From Ignavibacteriales bacterium (lineage in GTDB: Bacteria > Bacteroidota > Ignavibacteria > T3Sed10-11): 8,168 bases of DNA. Where the stretch lies: contig PWJF01000368.1 in assembly GCA_003560935.1 (NCBI GenBank), positions 1-8,168 on the forward strand, given 5' to 3'. Under the pieces are notes generated by a model. The model made no database searches, had not been told where the DNA came from, and saw only the letters and a program-made list of their open reading frames with translations. This document shows positions 3-8,168 of the stretch, piece after piece. A program made the position numbers and the translations under genes. Positions within the stretch are counted from its first letter, which is position 1; each line of letters opens with the position of its first letter.

Positions 3-2654
3 GTCGTCAGCGAAGATACCGGAGAACCCATTCCCGGAGCGAACGTGCTTATTGAAGGAACCACTACGGGTGCCGCTGCGGATATGGACGGCAGGTTTTC
101 TATTTTAAATGTACGTCCCGGTACCTACACAGTCCGCGCTTCGGCGATCGGATACCAGACCGTCGTCATGCAGGAAGTCCGCGTGAGTATCGATCTCACC
201 ACCGATGTAAAGTTTGTACTTCCGGAAACGGTGCTTGAACTCGGCGAGGAGGTGGTTGTTATCGCCGAACGCCCGATCGTTCAACGTGATTTAACTGCAA
301 CAACGGCGGTTGTTACCGGCGATCTTATTCAAGCGCTGCCGGTTACGGAATTCACACAGGTACTCGAGTTGCAAGCCGGATGGGTAAACGGACACTTGCG
401 CGGCGGTCGATCCGGTGAGGTTGCATACTGGATTGACGGTATGCCGGTGACAGACGTCTTTGACGGAAGTCTGGTGGTGGAAGTTAACCGCGAATCGATC
501 GAGGAAATGCAGCTTATAAGCGGCGCCTTCAATGCGGAATTTGGTCAGGCAATGTCGGGCGTTGTGAACATCGTCACTCGCGATGGTTCTAACACATTCC
601 GGGGAAATATGACAACATACACCGGTGATTATACCCTTGGCAACGACGGCATATTTAGGGGACCTTCAAGATACCAACCTACCAACATACAAAATTTTGA
701 AGGTAATCTCAGCGGGCCGATAGTGAGGGATAGATTATTTTTCGATGTAAACCTTCGATATATTCATTTCGGTGGTTGGTTGTACGGCCGTAGAATTTTT
801 ACTCCCGCGAATATAACCGATAATCAGCCGGTAAGAGTTGAAGATTGGTCTATATCGGTAAATCCGGATGAAGGGCTTGGCGACAGTACATGGGTATCGA
901 TGAATCCTTCGGAAAAAACTTACGGACAATTGAAGTTTACCTACCGTGTCAGTCCGTCGCTTCGCTTGAGTTACAACTTCATTTATGATCATGTGTGGTT
1001 CCGACAATTCGATTTTATGAATCTGTACAATCCCGATGGCGACCTTGACCGTTTCACGCTCGGGTATACTCAGATGTTTAATCTGAATCACACATTGAGC
1101 AGCAGGACGTACTATACTGTAGGTGTTTCGCATTTCTTGAAGGATTACGAGCATTACGCATTTGAAGATCCTCGTGATACTATGCACGTTCATCCGAGAT
1201 TGTTCAATCAGCAGCCGCCGTTCAGTTTTCGAACCGGCGGGGTTAACCTGCACCGGTTTAACAGAAATACCGAAACCATAGTCGGTAAGTTTGATGTAAC
1301 GAGTCAAATTACACGCTCGCATCAGATTAAAACCGGCATTGAAGTACGTTATCACAATTTATTTTTCCGCGACCTGACGCTTCGTCCCACCGACGAACAT
1401 CTAAACCGCGATCCCCGTGCCGACGGAAACCCATTCATCGAAACAGTTGATCCTCCACAGGAATCCTTCATGTTCGATGAATACCGGCGTAATCCACTGG
1501 AGTTATCCTGGTATATACAGGATAAGATGGAATTTGACAATATGGTCGTGAATGTCGGCGTCAGGATGGATTATTTTGTGCCCGATGGAGTAATCCTCGC
1601 CGATCCATCAGATCCGAATATTTATGACCCGCTCCGGCAGGAGAATCAGGAACTGTCTCTGGGAGAACGACGCCGGATTTGGTATCGGGACGCATCGAAC
1701 AAATTTCAAATTAGCCCGCGTCTCGGTGTGGCGTTTCCGATCACCGACCGCGGCAAGATTCATTTTTCATACGGCCACTTCTTTCAAATTCCGAACTTTA
1801 ATCTGCTTTATCAGAATCCGGAGTTTAAAATCGGCGCCGGTACCGGCAACGTCGGACTGGTCGGGAATTCCGATCTCAAACCCGAACAGACAATAAGCGG
1901 CGAGATCGGTGTACAGCAGCAATTCACCGATAATATCGGTGTGGAATTAACCGGATATTTTCGTGACATCCGGAATCTTACCGGTACGAGAGCAGACGAA
2001 ATTACGCTCTTTGGCGGTGCAGGTAAATACAGTCAATTTAAAAACTCAGACTTCGGCTTCATTCGCGGAATCATTTTGCGTTTTGAGAAACGCTTTACCG
2101 ATGGATGGGCGGCGACCGCGGATTATACGTATCAGGTTGCAAAAGGGAATGCATCTGATCCTGCAGCCACACGTAACTTTATTATCGGAGGTGTTGAACC
2201 GGAAGAACAGTTGATTCCTCTCGATTGGGATCAGACGCACACGTTCAATGCAACGGCGACGTATGCTTCACCCCAGGATTGGGGAGGAAGTGTCATTATC
2301 CGGTATGGGAGCGGCTTACCGTATACTCCGCGACAAACACAGAACATTGCGAGATTGCTTATTAATTCCGAACGTCGCCCCACATATTTCGATGTCGACG
2401 TTAATCTATATAAAGATTTTCAATTTGACTTTATGAGGTTATCGGTATGGTCGAGGATCATCAATGTTTTCAATATCCGGAATCAAGTCAACGTGTATGA
2501 TGACTCGGGGCGCGCCGATTACACTATAGATGAAGTCAATATACTACGCTCAAATCCTCCCGAGCGGGTCAATACAGTCGAGGAGTATTTCCGGAATCCG
2601 ACTTTTTATAATGAGCCAAGAAGAATCGAAATTGGATTGTCTATTTATTATTAA
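3..2654 (+). CDS. TonB-dependent receptor with N-terminal carboxypeptidase-regulatory-like domain (5'-partial)
   Basis: Outer-membrane beta-barrel receptor, expected to import an unidentified ligand using TonB/proton-motive force. The frame is open to the left edge (codons from base 3: VVSEDTGEPIPGANV...). The GTG at 45 is therefore an internal valine, and the signal peptide and any TonB box lie outside the window. Of 883 visible residues, about 1-74 form a CarboxypepD_reg-like beta-sandwich (TGEPIPGANV, then ADMDGRF, PGTYTVRASAIGYQ). Residues ~85-195 form the plug (VVVIAERPIVQRDLTA, ALPV, RGGRSGEVAYWIDGMPV, FNAEFGQAMSGVVNIVTRDG). The rest is a barrel with typical strands (HFSYGHFFQIPNF near 585; NSDLKPEQT at 622). 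It ends GLSIYY, the terminal aromatic expected of BAM-assembled barrels. No cysteine is seen. The stop is TAA. The next gene starts 24 bases downstream, suggesting an operon. Substrate cannot be inferred; no SusD-like gene is adjacent in the window. Confidence 0.94.
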   Translation, partial: VVSEDTGEPIPGANVLIEGTTTGAAADMDGRFSILNVRPGTYTVRASAIGYQTVVMQEVRVSIDLTTDVKFVLPETVLELGEEVVVIAERPIVQRDLTATTAVVTGDLIQALPVTEFTQVLELQAGWVNGHLRGGRSGEVAYWIDGMPVTDVFDGSLVVEVNRESIEEMQLISGAFNAEFGQAMSGVVNIVTRDGSNTFRGNMTTYTGDYTLGNDGIFRGPSRYQPTNIQNFEGNLSGPIVRDRLFFDVNLRYIHFGGWLYGRRIFTPANITDNQPVRVEDWSISVNPDEGLGDSTWVSMNPSEKTYGQLKFTYRVSPSLRLSYNFIYDHVWFRQFDFMNLYNPDGDLDRFTLGYTQMFNLNHTLSSRTYYTVGVSHFLKDYEHYAFEDPRDTMHVHPRLFNQQPPFSFRTGGVNLHRFNRNTETIVGKFDVTSQITRSHQIKTGIEVRYHNLFFRDLTLRPTDEHLNRDPRADGNPFIETVDPPQESFMFDEYRRNPLELSWYIQDKMEFDNMVVNVGVRMDYFVPDGVILADPSDPNIYDPLRQENQELSLGERRRIWYRDASNKFQISPRLGVAFPITDRGKIHFSYGHFFQIPNFNLLYQNPEFKIGAGTGNVGLVGNSDLKPEQTISGEIGVQQQFTDNIGVELTGYFRDIRNLTGTRADEITLFGGAGKYSQFKNSDFGFIRGIILRFEKRFTDGWAATADYTYQVAKGNASDPAATRNFIIGGVEPEEQLIPLDWDQTHTFNATATYASPQDWGGSVIIRYGSGLPYTPRQTQNIARLLINSERRPTYFDVDVNLYKDFQFDFMRLSVWSRIINVFNIRNQVNVYDDSGRADYTIDEVNILRSNPPERVNTVEEYFRNPTFYNEPRRIEIGLSIYY

Positions 2655-2678: not shown

Positions 2679-5600
2679 ATGAGAAAGCGCATTCTTGCAT
2701 CTCTCGTAATTGCATTCACGATTTTCTCTGCAGAAGATTTAATACTCTATGCACAATCGCAAGTCGACGGTACTCAGGCAGACAGAACACAGCGCAGAGT
2801 CGGAATCCATCGGGGTAACCAGGTTCGTACCGTGTTTGGAAACTGGGGTGTTATAGGCCAACCGCACGATCAGGGACCGATGGCTGCATGGAGGAGTGAC
2901 GGGGATGGATATGTAGGAGACATAAGTCCCATGATTGGTGCTGAGGTCTATATCGAACGGAAAGATTCGGATGGAAATCCGGTGCTGGATAATAACGGAA
3001 ACGTTATTATCGATACGGTTAACCACGTAGTTGTGACACCTGCTTTCCGTCCCGGCAGTGCGATACCCGGCGAAGGGGAAGAAGGTAGGGCATGGACATT
3101 TGAGCCGGTGCGAGGATTCTTCAATCCTGCGCTCGATGAACCCGGAAAAGGTATTGCAATGAACCATCAACCGGAGACCTGGCCTGATTACTGGCCGGAT
3201 CGCCCGGATTATGTGGACTCTCTCGGAAATGTCGTTTGGAATGGATATTTCGGCCCGGGTGACAGTCGTGCAGACCAGGAGAGCTATTACTGGATAAGTG
3301 ACCATAACGATAGGGAATTGTTCCGCGATCCGCCTGCGGGAAGAGGCTTTCGTCCGGATAGTACCCGATTGAACAGGGGAGGACTGGGATTTGATGTAGC
3401 CATACGCGGCATGCAGTGGTCGAATATTCTTGCCGAAGATAATATCTTCTGGTTATATGATATCCATAATTCAAGTACAACAAATTATCGAAGAACGGTA
3501 TTCGGAATCCTCGTCGGCATGTGGGTTGGCGGTGGAGGCGGTGTCCAGGGTGAATGGGAGGACAATGTATCTTTCTTTGACGTCGAGGAAGATATTACGT
3601 ATGCATGGAAGTTTAACTTCCGTGAGCCAACGCGAAACCCACGCTGGGTCGGGCCGGTTGGAATCGTCGGTGTCGCATTTCTTGAGAGCCCCGGTAATCC
3701 TTTTGATGGTATTGATAATGACGGTGATGTCCAAAGAGCAGATACACCGCGTTTTCGTGCGGATGATTTCGGTCCAGCACCTCACAGATTGTTTAGAAGG
3801 ACAATTAATTTCAACCCCGACAGATATAATCCGAATAATGATGGGTGCGAGTTTGTTGGTCCGAATCCTCGATTCCCAGATAATTTTGTTGTGTTGATAA
3901 ACGATACAACTCTGTATTTCAGGATGTCCGATGAACCTATTCAGGTATACGATCGAACATTAGTTTGTCTTGATAAACTTGCGTATGAACAAGGGAAAAC
4001 TGTCGACGATACATTGACAGTTGTTTCATTAGGGATAGAATATAAACTCTGGAATGGAAAGGTACTCGTTGAGAAGAACAATACCGGTATCGATGAGAAT
4101 CTAAATGGGTTGATCGATGAAAACTACTTTCTCCACTATGAGCAAATCAGGCGGAATCAACAGGGGCAGATTCTCTTCCGCATTACACGCCCGCTTGCCT
4201 ATAAAAACTATTTTACCGGTGCAGGAGTAGACGATCCCCTCATCGATGAAAGGCGCGACGACGGTGTCGATAATTACTTCGGCGTCGATACGGACCCCCG
4301 TGAATCGGATCAGATCGGTTTAACGAGCTTTGAGTACTTTTCTCCTGCCGATCTCATCGATATGACAGATAAGCAAGACCTTTGGGCGAGGATGTCGCCC
4401 GGATTCTTCGATGTACCGGATATGTTCCGCTTTGACCCGAACACCGGTGAGAACATTCCGTTGCGGGGTGAGGACGGTAATTATGTATATGCATCCGGAT
4501 ATTTCCCTCTCGGCGCCCGTTCAAGTCAGCGTATGAGCGTTGCGCTTGTGTACGGTCAGGATTTCGATCAATTGTTCCACAATAAAAATACCGTTCAGGA
4601 TATCTACGACGCATCGTATCAGTTTCCCCAGCCGCCGATTAAACCCACGCTTCAAGCTATTCCCGGCGACGGCGAGGTTATCCTTATCTGGGACGATGTG
4701 GCTGAATCGTCATATAACCAGGTGTTGGAGTTATTCTACCCCGATGATCCGGAGCGTGCATATGATTTTCAGGGTTATAAACTGTATAAATCCAAGGATC
4801 CCGACTTCAGGGATATTCGAACTATAACCGACGGGCGCGGTAATCCCCGGTTTTATAGACCCCTTGTTCAGTACGATAAAATTAATGGTATTACAGGTTT
4901 CTTCGATGCAAATCCGGTATTAAATGAACGTCTTGGCGGGGCACAATTCTGGTTGGGCGATGATACCGGCTTACAGCATCGTTATGTTGATACCGATGTT
5001 AAAAACGGTGTAACGTACTACTATGCACTTGTCGCATACAATCACGGTTCTGAGGAGTTCGATGTATTTCCATCCGAGAATACAAGATTTATTTTCCGTA
5101 CGGTCACCGGTGAAGTAGTTACAGATCGCAACACCGTCGTTGTAGTGCCGAATGCTCCATCGGCTGGTTATGTACCTCCCGAAGGCGCCGGAAAAATTGA
5201 ACATGTGGAAGGACCTGCGACGGGTGAAGTATACTCTGTCGTAATCAATCCGCGTGAAGTGAAGGATAACCATACCTACCGTGTTGAGTTCACCGATACG
5301 ACGTTATCCCGTTTAACAGAATCGTACCGGGTAATCGACATCACCGATCAGTTGGCGCCGGATACACTGCTTTCGAATGCTCGAACGTTCATCGGAGAAA
5401 CTGCCTTTTTCGACGGTTTACAGTTGTCATTCAACAACAATTGGGAGGTCAGGTATCTTAGCGCTAATTCGGGGTGGAGTGACGATCAGAGTTTCCCGCA
5501 CTTTACGTATAATCTGGCGATAGTTGAGATGGTAGATATATTCGGGCAAACAGTACGCGGTGTTCGAAATCCGGCGGATTACGAGATTGAATTCTTCGAT

Positions 5601-6044
5601 GAAGTTGTCGATACCTCAATTGATTACCCCTCGCTCGGAGTTGTTGCAGAACCGCTGTATTTTAAAATCAGAAATATTATCGACGGAACTGAACCTGACG
5701 TACTCTACTTTTCTTTTAAAGCCGATGAGTTTCGACAAACGACCATCGCACTTATGGAGGAATTTGACGGGGAGCCGAGGTTAACATGGGTTATCGATTT
5801 TCGTTTGACCAACAAGCCCGATTTTGAATATCCGGGCAGCGGAAATAAACTTATGATAAGAACAAGCAAGCCGTTCTCATCGCGCGATGCCTTTGAATTT
5901 TCGACGAAAGCGGAATTCTATGATGACAATCTGGCAAAAGAGAATCTCGATAATATCCGGGTGGTGCCGAACCCGTATGTTGCAGCGGCATCGTGGGAGC
6001 AACCGCTGCCGCCGGGAGTGATCAGCGGACGGGGAGAACGGTAG
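2679..6044 (+). CDS. Large exported protein with fibronectin-III-like module, C-terminal sorting domain cut by in-frame TAG
   Basis: 1121 residues as read to the first stop; enzymatic function unknown. Residues 1-26 are a signal peptide (MRKRILASLVIAFTIFS..., cleavage probably after LYA). The N-terminal part (RRVGIHRGNQVRTVFGNWG, then GYVGDISPMIGAEV) looks like a recurrent family of large FCB-group exported proteins; that recognition is from memory. A Gly-rich stretch lies near 281-290 (MWVGGGGGV). Asp-rich loops resembling calcium-binding repeats occur at ~345 (GIDNDGD), 470 (GIDENLNGLIDEN) and ~525-540 (DDGVDNYFGVDTD). A fibronectin-III-like module spans ~651-790 (GEVILIWDD, FQGYKLYKS, GVTYYYALVAYNHG). 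The only cysteines seen are Cys390 and Cys430. The start of a Por/FlgD-like C-terminal domain appears at ~1088 (NIRVVPNPYVAAASWE, then GVISGRGER), then TAG at 6042. Homology resumes in the same frame, so the intact gene would be 2679-6266. Likely co-transcribed with the upstream receptor. The start is supported by the SD and the signal peptide. Confidence 0.9.
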   Translation: MRKRILASLVIAFTIFSAEDLILYAQSQVDGTQADRTQRRVGIHRGNQVRTVFGNWGVIGQPHDQGPMAAWRSDGDGYVGDISPMIGAEVYIERKDSDGNPVLDNNGNVIIDTVNHVVVTPAFRPGSAIPGEGEEGRAWTFEPVRGFFNPALDEPGKGIAMNHQPETWPDYWPDRPDYVDSLGNVVWNGYFGPGDSRADQESYYWISDHNDRELFRDPPAGRGFRPDSTRLNRGGLGFDVAIRGMQWSNILAEDNIFWLYDIHNSSTTNYRRTVFGILVGMWVGGGGGVQGEWEDNVSFFDVEEDITYAWKFNFREPTRNPRWVGPVGIVGVAFLESPGNPFDGIDNDGDVQRADTPRFRADDFGPAPHRLFRRTINFNPDRYNPNNDGCEFVGPNPRFPDNFVVLINDTTLYFRMSDEPIQVYDRTLVCLDKLAYEQGKTVDDTLTVVSLGIEYKLWNGKVLVEKNNTGIDENLNGLIDENYFLHYEQIRRNQQGQILFRITRPLAYKNYFTGAGVDDPLIDERRDDGVDNYFGVDTDPRESDQIGLTSFEYFSPADLIDMTDKQDLWARMSPGFFDVPDMFRFDPNTGENIPLRGEDGNYVYASGYFPLGARSSQRMSVALVYGQDFDQLFHNKNTVQDIYDASYQFPQPPIKPTLQAIPGDGEVILIWDDVAESSYNQVLELFYPDDPERAYDFQGYKLYKSKDPDFRDIRTITDGRGNPRFYRPLVQYDKINGITGFFDANPVLNERLGGAQFWLGDDTGLQHRYVDTDVKNGVTYYYALVAYNHGSEEFDVFPSENTRFIFRTVTGEVVTDRNTVVVVPNAPSAGYVPPEGAGKIEHVEGPATGEVYSVVINPREVKDNHTYRVEFTDTTLSRLTESYRVIDITDQLAPDTLLSNARTFIGETAFFDGLQLSFNNNWEVRYLSANSGWSDDQSFPHFTYNLAIVEMVDIFGQTVRGVRNPADYEIEFFDEVVDTSIDYPSLGVVAEPLYFKIRNIIDGTEPDVLYFSFKADEFRQTTIALMEEFDGEPRLTWVIDFRLTNKPDFEYPGSGNKLMIRTSKPFSSRDAFEFSTKAEFYDDNLAKENLDNIRVVPNPYVAAASWEQPLPPGVISGRGER

Positions 6045-6266
6045 ATTGATTTTATTAATGTCCCGAAAGATGCAACAATCGATATCTTTACCTCCCGGGG
6101 TGCGCACGTCATCTCCCTGCGTCATGAAGGCGGATTAACAGACGGTACCGTATCCTGGAATCTGCGAACGAAAGAAAACCTCGACATTGCGTTCGGAGTT
6201 TATTTTTATGTTGTCGATGCACCGGGAATCGGACAGAAATTCGGAAGGATAGCAATTATCAAATAG
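6045..6266 (+). pseudogene. Severed C-terminal sorting-domain remainder of the upstream protein (in frame after TAG)
   Basis: 73 codons in the same frame as the upstream gene, immediately after the TAG at 6042-6044, ending at TAG 6264-6266. The translation begins IDFINVPKDATIDIFTSRG, continues through WNLRTKENLDIAFGVYFYVV, and ends GQKFGRIAIIK. This is the typical second part of a Por-secretion-tail/FlgD-like Ig domain: x-F-x-x-(V/L)-P, (I/V)-x-(I/V)-(F/Y)-T-x-x-G, W-x-L, GVYFY, then a terminal (I/L)-(I/L)-K. The first part (VPNPY) lies upstream of the stop. No in-frame ATG or GTG with a Shine-Dalgarno exists near 6045 (the ATG at 6058 is out of frame), so independent translation is unlikely. 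It is best read as the disconnected 3' end of one gene, through mutation, base-call error or rare readthrough. Confidence 0.85.
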
Positions 6267-6357: not shown

Positions 6358-6377
6358 CTCAATTAGTCTTAACATGT

Positions 6378-6381
6378 GAGA
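6378..6381 (+). promoter_or_regulatory. Weak ribosome binding site that sets the start of the PorV-like gene
   Basis: GAGA lies 6 bases before the ATG at 6388. The alternative in-frame GTG at 6376 has no purine-rich SD upstream, and using it would add MRND in front of a signal peptide that already looks complete. ATG 6388 is therefore preferred. Confidence 0.5.
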
Positions 6382-6387
6382 AACGAT

Positions 6388-7407
6388 ATGAAATTACAAA
6401 AGTTTTGTTTCATTATCCTGGCCTTTGCATTACTAATGACTACGAATAGTTATTCGCAGTCGAAAGTCGGAACGACCGCTGCACAGTTCCTGGGAATTAG
6501 TGTCGGTGCACGGGCAACCGCCCTTGGCGGCGCCTTCGGTGCGGTTGCCGAAGATGCAACCGCCCTGTATTGGAATCCCGCCGGGATGTCAAGAACGGGC
6601 CTGTCGGAAGTGTATATATCGCACACCGAGTGGCTTGTCGAGACCGACTTCAATTGGGCGGGACTGGTTATCGCACTGGATCGAAACAATGCTATAGGAG
6701 TACACTTCACCCAATTAAATTACGGCGAAGATATTGTGACCACAATCGAAGACCCTATGGGAACCGGCGACCGCTGGTCGGCTATGGATATTGCCGCGGG
6801 AATTTCGTATTCGCGTAATCTTACCGACTTCTTTTCGATAGGCGGATCGGTAAAGTATATCAATCAGAGAATATGGACTGAAAGCGCGTCGGCATTCGCA
6901 ATCGATATCGGGCTTCTCTTCATTACCGGATTTAATGACATGAAGCTCGGTGTTTCAATTTCGAACTTCGGGACGGAAATGAAGATGGACGGTAAAAACC
7001 TAAGCATTATTCACGACATGGATTCGGATTCCTTCGGAACAAATGATAAAATACCCGGAAGATTGGAAACCGATAGATTTGTGTTGCCACTCTTATTCCG
7101 GGTAGGTCTCTCAATGGATGTTTTACGAACAGAACAAAACCGGATTCTTATCAGCACGGAAGCTTCATACCCGAATGATCAGGATCCCTTTATGAGTACG
7201 GGCATCGAATATACATGGAACGATCTGTTATCGATACGTGGTGGATATCGTTCATTATTTATGCCCGATCCGGTCGAAACATGGACGTTTGGCGGAGGAA
7301 TAAAATTAAATCTTTCCGGTACCGTAGCTGCCCGTGTCGATTATGTCTATCAGGATTTTGGTGTGTTTTCCAATGTTCAATCAATTGCAGTCGGATTAAA
7401 TTTTTAA
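6388..7407 (+). CDS. PorV/PorQ-family outer-membrane beta-barrel protein
   Basis: 339 residues from ATG 6388. Residues 1-23 are a signal peptide (MKLQKFCFIILAFALLM..., cleavage near SYS|QS). The mature protein opens with the family's hallmark segment at about 29-67: TTAAQFLGISVGARATALGG, AFGAVAEDATALYWNPAGM. Repeated amphipathic strands follow, and the protein ends VQSIAVGLNF, a terminal Phe typical of BAM substrates. Length and pattern match the FadL-like barrels grouped as PorV/PorQ (older UPF0164). In Bacteroidetes, PorV is the outer-membrane shuttle of the type IX secretion system, binding C-terminal domains of cargo. Many paralogues exist in FCB genomes, so assignment to PorV itself rather than a cargo-dedicated paralogue is not possible here. 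Placement next to a protein with a Por-like tail fits a cognate role (inference). The only cysteine (Cys7) is in the signal peptide and is not a lipobox. The stop is TAA. Confidence 0.92.
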   Translation: MKLQKFCFIILAFALLMTTNSYSQSKVGTTAAQFLGISVGARATALGGAFGAVAEDATALYWNPAGMSRTGLSEVYISHTEWLVETDFNWAGLVIALDRNNAIGVHFTQLNYGEDIVTTIEDPMGTGDRWSAMDIAAGISYSRNLTDFFSIGGSVKYINQRIWTESASAFAIDIGLLFITGFNDMKLGVSISNFGTEMKMDGKNLSIIHDMDSDSFGTNDKIPGRLETDRFVLPLLFRVGLSMDVLRTEQNRILISTEASYPNDQDPFMSTGIEYTWNDLLSIRGGYRSLFMPDPVETWTFGGGIKLNLSGTVAARVDYVYQDFGVFSNVQSIAVGLNF

Positions 7408-7641: not shown

Positions 7642-8168
7642 ATGAAAACGATCACAATGGTACTTCTTGTAGTTGCATTGATACTTACCAGTGCTCCTGC
7701 TTTAGTTGCGCAGGATATGGTCGATGTCACTTTCCGGGCAAATACCGCAGCATGGAGGGATACTCTCGGCGCTGATGGTCTGGTACAAATTCGTGGTACA
7801 ATTGCAAGTGACAGCGATAACCCAAACGAGCTTTCACCGGGGGTCATTATTGACTGGAATGCCAATACCACAATGTATCTTACCAATACTGAAGGTGATT
7901 ACTGGGAGGGAACATTCCAAATACCTGCCGGGACTAAGTTGGTATACAAATTTTTTACAAATGCTCAACACGACACGGTTGCCCCGGGTGATGCCTGGGA
8001 ACATGAAGGATGGGAGTTTGATATCGCAGGCGGATACGGTGATGATGGCGAGAGTGCGGGCGGCAACCGTCTACTCGATCTCACCGGTGTTGATGCCGAT
8101 ACGGTACTCCCGTTACAATTTGTCAATGGCATCGGCGGTAACGCACTGGAGCAATATCAAAAACCCTA
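7642..8168 (+). CDS. Secreted protein with N-terminal starch-binding/E-set-like beta-sandwich (3'-partial)
   Basis: 175 codons are visible and the frame stays open to the right edge. Residues 1-23 are a signal peptide (MKTITMVLLVVALILTSAPA, cleavage probably LVA|QD). From residue ~27 the pattern is VTFRANTAAW, DGLVQIRGTI, VIIDWNANTTMYLTN, GDYWEGTFQIPAGTKLVYKF, WEHEGWEFD, GGNRLLDLTG, VLPLQFVNG. A strand with an x-x-(V/I)-R-G turn, a W-bearing loop, W-(x)2-T-(F/V)-x-(I/V)-P-A-G-T, then Y-K-F and a later N-R, resembles the CBM20/CBM48-type and related E-set domains. Those bind glycans in amylases, but this version is also common as a generic N-terminal module of exported FCB proteins. The C-terminus is unseen, so a sorting tail or catalytic domain cannot be judged. 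The 234-base gap and repeats upstream suggest its own transcription unit. A sugar-binding role is inference. Confidence 0.85.
   Translation, partial: MKTITMVLLVVALILTSAPALVAQDMVDVTFRANTAAWRDTLGADGLVQIRGTIASDSDNPNELSPGVIIDWNANTTMYLTNTEGDYWEGTFQIPAGTKLVYKFFTNAQHDTVAPGDAWEHEGWEFDIAGGYGDDGESAGGNRLLDLTGVDADTVLPLQFVNGIGGNALEQYQKP

Follow-up and report, generated by a model that had tools for sequence, protein, structure and literature searches.

Why does the long reading frame that opens at position 2679 close at a TAG and then run on, in the same frame, for another 73 codons? The window, by which we mean the whole stretch of 8,168 nucleotides that was analysed, is the entire contig C252 of an Ignavibacteriales draft genome (2,949,799 bases in 574 contigs, 79.1% complete). 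Reading its open frames on the forward strand, we find an ATG at 2679 and 1121 residues, with an N-terminus that by eye resembles a signal peptide, up to the TAG at 6042-6044; past it the frame stays open over 6045-6263 until a second TAG (6264-6266) closes it, just as the initial annotation had described. Its statement that one codon is hit and no frameshift is present also stands, since the alignment with the frame of a same-genus relative (L002) passes straight through the site. We think it likely that this TAG, which interrupts a single 1195-codon frame, stems from one wrong base in the draft assembly and is not a working amber codon; it is very probably no functional amber, and most likely not what the organism carries at this site. 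The argument draws on the following features of the window:

3-2654, forward strand: TonB-dependent receptor-like gene (PF00593, 91.7 bits), its 5' end cut by the contig edge and its frame open from base 3
2679-6044, forward strand: body of the large protein, of a family without description; 1121 codons plus TAG
5934-6263, forward strand: region modelled as a C-terminal domain, residues 1086-1195 (predicted fold, modelled with lysine in place of the stop)
6042-6044, forward strand: in-frame TAG at codon 1122, where the nearest homologues have lysine (from the frame, the homologue alignment and a profile search)
6045-6266, forward strand: 73-codon continuation in the same frame, closing at TAG 6264-6266, with no in-frame ATG, GTG or TTG
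6376-7407, forward strand: PorV/PorQ-family outer-membrane protein gene (NF033709, 197.6 bits against a cut-off of 90; PF19572, 32.1 bits against 27)

The interrupted gene has the TonB-dependent receptor-like gene as its upstream neighbor and the PorV/PorQ-family gene as its downstream one. The 1121-residue body retrieves 1778 proteins at E <= 0.001 from the protein collection, a large family without description, while Pfam returns nothing for it at E 0.1. The PorV-family gene is followed at 7642-8166 by an open frame with a signal-peptide-like start that runs off the contig end.

The Stop Falls within a Single Conserved Gene

The initial annotation expected a basic residue at codon 1122 and proposed aligning homologues there. 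In that alignment the position is lysine in all 13 nearest database homologues, and the same-frame C-termini of these 13 proteins correspond to the 73-codon tail. The nearest relative, from a same-genus genome at 82-86% identity, carries lysine at the site and reads straight through without a stop. A tail alignment took 25 loci, one of which is the window itself (L001) and three of which (L003, L011 and L013) gave no tail match; the remaining 21 relatives all have a sense codon at the site (11 Lys, 6 Arg, 2 Glu, 1 Leu and 1 Phe). A profile of the tail has matches in every one of the 119 genomes that represent the class, and among the 150 tail matches listed, from 62 genomes, only that of the window holds a stop; in this search the window's tail, flagged with "1 TAG", scores as an intact one would. 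The continuation is therefore not random sequence, since it lines up with the tails of 21 relatives and the C-termini of 13 homologues and scores like an intact tail.

Could the tail instead be a separate gene that starts past the stop? Apart from the stop itself, nothing points to such an arrangement: there is no ATG, GTG or TTG among the 73 codons of the tail, and the aligned homologues have one uninterrupted protein. We accordingly rejected a separate tail gene, to which we assign next to no probability, and the initial reading of a single gene is upheld. We looked for a second copy of the interrupted gene in the protein collection (one search there spanned proteins of ~192 to 612 residues, and the lists give the best 120) and in the species genomes, a set that may leave out the window's own genome; among the matches listed were only the window's own copy and relatives at no more than 80-82% identity.

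Relative to the same-genus homologue, the nonsynonymous difference is 0.060 in the tail, compared with 0.109 over 625 codons of the body and 0.096 over the 73 codons before the stop, with synonymous differences near saturation (0.72-0.84). As judged from these substitution values, the tail appears undecayed, without relaxed constraint.

The Tail Resembles a Type IX Secretion Domain

Modelling of residues 1086-1195 predicts a domain of seven strands, in which the stop occupies the first residue of strand 2. The predicted fold matches the C-terminal domains of type IX secretion, an Ig-like beta-sandwich of the T9SS kind, and is like those of PorZ (5m11), mirolase (8qb1) and RemA (8gl6), as well as PorU (6za2) and RgpB (5ag8 and 7pq4). 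Curated sorting-domain profiles place the window below their cut-offs (CHU_C, 17.8 bits against 27), and a 288-residue slice of the protein has no family at E 0.01. At E <= 0.1, CHU_C is matched by 13 of 18 relatives' domains and Por_Secre_tail by 11 of 18; the window is not in the Por_Secre_tail set. The translocon is represented in the organism's own genome by a SprA_N match (E 1.7e-53), together with the PorV/PorQ-family gene at 6376-7407. The suggestion that this is an export-type sorting tail thus gains support from a model that resembles type IX C-terminal domains and from the adjoining PorV-family gene, and the full-length protein is predicted to cross the outer membrane via type IX secretion by means of its C-terminal domain.

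Lone Stops Occur in Other Conserved Genes of the Assembly

The initial annotation also called for a search for other in-frame TAGs in conserved genes. We surveyed 140 of the 574 contigs (900,862 bases); 18 of them are all N, and the readable sequence, window included, comes to 862,433 bases. A strict candidate was defined as same-frame open stretches split by one stop, both coding-like and with no competing frame. There are 59 such candidates including the window, and the other 58 were scanned against Pfam. A domain runs across the stop in three of them (L136, L106 and L151), and each of these stops is TAA. For the other 55, no Pfam stretch is reported across the stop: many carry different domains before and after it, some have a domain in just one of the two parts, and L194, which contains two stops, has no Pfam family. 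By themselves, codon scores are thus too permissive to identify split genes.

A looser scan yielded ten more candidates, L119 among them. At L195, PF10712 runs across a TGA in a frame antisense to a dnaK-like gene, and this case was set aside. Seven of the remaining eight have no family match, and L190 has a domain before the stop only. The Pfam census is a floor, because only the best stretch is shown for each candidate and L119 was revealed by homologues rather than by Pfam. The search for further TAGs thus returned one in 862,433 bases, at L119, plus three TAA, so that the homology-supported lone stops in the sample number five with the window's own, two TAG and three TAA. Those outside the window are:

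L106:3940-3942, contig C211: TAA inside malate dehydrogenase; a Pfam domain and a solved structure align across the stop
L151:387-389, contig C77, reverse strand: TAA inside a serine palmitoyltransferase-like gene; a Pfam domain and a solved structure align across the stop
L136:1320-1322, contig C241: TAA inside a DUF4175 domain; the Pfam domain runs across the stop
L119:2972-2974, contig C224, reverse strand: early TAG in a Por_Secre_tail protein, at residue 110 of 731; from homologues

Ldh_1_C has a single match in this assembly, the malate dehydrogenase that bears the stop; in five congeners all nine Ldh_1_C matches are intact. At L119, all eight homologues have glutamate at the site of the TAG. 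The protein collection also holds an intact 731-residue version of the L119 product, identical at 728 of 731 positions and represented by three member sequences, whose longest contig measures 56,900 bases versus 9,801 for that of L119; the intact copy therefore does not come from the L119 contig of this assembly. It departs from seven other homologues at two further residues, where the L119 gene of the present assembly does not. These extra differences indicate that near-identical assemblies of the organism disagree at single positions, and they make strain variation possible too.

A random substitution in these genes would create a stop with a probability of 0.042, with expected shares of 0.41 for TAA, 0.37 for TAG and 0.23 for TGA; the observed counts (three TAA, two TAG) show no clear deviation from these shares. 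Five stops imply ~120 changed bases in 862,433, or ~1.4e-4 per base, which is a floor since the census misses cases and which we judge plausible for a draft metagenome assembly. In whole-genome searches by family, lone stops were found in none of 32 ABC transporter, 21 TonB barrel and 45 response-regulator matches, and in one of ten aminotransferase-fold matches, the L151 gene.

Recoding and Readthrough

An in-frame TAG followed by conserved coding sequence is the likeness that the window bears to stop-codon reassignment and amber suppression. RF1, however, is present in the genome (530.4 bits against a cut-off of 423.25, without an inner stop), and TAG is a normal terminator: of the 583 open stretches in the sampled contigs that reach 250 codons or more, 428 have a terminal stop, which is TAA in 226, TGA in 136 and TAG in 66. 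The window frame itself ends in TAG (6264-6266), and the one PylS match, at 33.1 bits, lies far under its cut-off of 178.15. For a reassignment of TAG to an amino acid, the two TAG cases are the only argument; RF1, the use of TAG as a usual terminator, the second TAG of the same frame and the weak PylS match led us to reject it. The recoded TAG listed among the initial options is contradicted on these grounds, and its probability is close to nil.

A leaky amber would act differently, with partial readthrough giving an exported, tailed form and a retained, untailed one. Such a switch would be in keeping with a tail that is conserved and open past the stop, and the sole other TAG case, L119, is also a sorting-tail gene. 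It is opposed by the other 149 listed tails, none of which holds a stop, and by the tRNA complement: no CUA anticodon occurs in 27 tRNA matches from an assembly that is 79% complete (ARAGORN named 25 of the 27, and the two edge fragments, read by eye, have GAC and GCU in the anticodon loop). The suppressor tRNA that the initial annotation proposed to look for was thus absent from these matches. Lone stops are moreover not confined to TAG, three of the five being TAA in unrelated genes, and the L119 stop is no tail switch, since at residue 110 of 731 it removes nearly the whole protein, of which an intact near-identical copy exists. The present case differs from stop-codon reassignment and amber suppression in that RF1 is present, TAG terminates, a CUA tRNA was not found and TAG specificity is lacking. 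Regulated readthrough has no conserved arrangement, candidate tRNA or TAG specificity behind it, and we consider a leaky amber very improbable. A broader version, in which the organism tolerates scattered UAA and UAG, including in malate dehydrogenase, via appreciable UAR readthrough and the amber sets the ratio of exported to retained protein, is very improbable.

Assembly Error or Recent Nonsense Mutation

The initial annotation had described the lesion as recent, artificial or tolerated. Within that range an error or a recent nonsense mutation is retained, and recoding and regulated readthrough are not. If the sampled population truly carries a recent nonsense mutation here, the protein would lack six of the seven predicted strands of its C-terminal domain and would likely stay periplasmic or be degraded. 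The undecayed tail is what a very recent lesion would predict, some of the lone-stop genes, the window's included, may be dispensable, and the near-identical copy of the L119 gene shows that small differences do occur between the assemblies of near relatives. On the other hand, with malate dehydrogenase found just once in the assembly, a stop inside it is unlikely to be tolerated, and several simultaneous nonsense alleles need more assumptions than scattered wrong bases. A recent nonsense allele accounts for the window stop alone, whereas scattered wrong bases account for all five, and the genome-wide pattern of lone stops thus favors error; we regard a true nonsense allele as possible, though on balance unlikely.

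The assembly-error explanation is supported by the similar lesions in four other conserved genes of the assembly, including the one malate dehydrogenase found, and all five stops could go back to a single shared cause, wrong bases scattered through a fragmented draft genome. The window's lesion is like the single-base errors of draft metagenomes in that one codon is affected, there is no decay and other genes, a core enzyme among them, are hit as well; our literature search found no papers on assembly errors or premature stops in genomes assembled from metagenomes. Some observations count against error. Lone stops are uncommon in the large family searches (0/32, 0/21 and 0/45), the differences of the intact L119 copy would also fit strain variation, and the two genes with a TAG each have a type IX-type C-terminal domain, a pattern that random error need not produce; with two cases, this may be chance.

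If the TAG is an assembly error, the product of the gene in the living organism would be a normal full-length protein that carries a predicted type IX sorting domain, and lone stops of this kind need a genome-wide census and a core-gene check before recoding or readthrough is invoked. If, conversely, both the window TAG and the malate dehydrogenase stop were true, one would have to ask in earnest whether this lineage reads through stop codons generally, which would be surprising.
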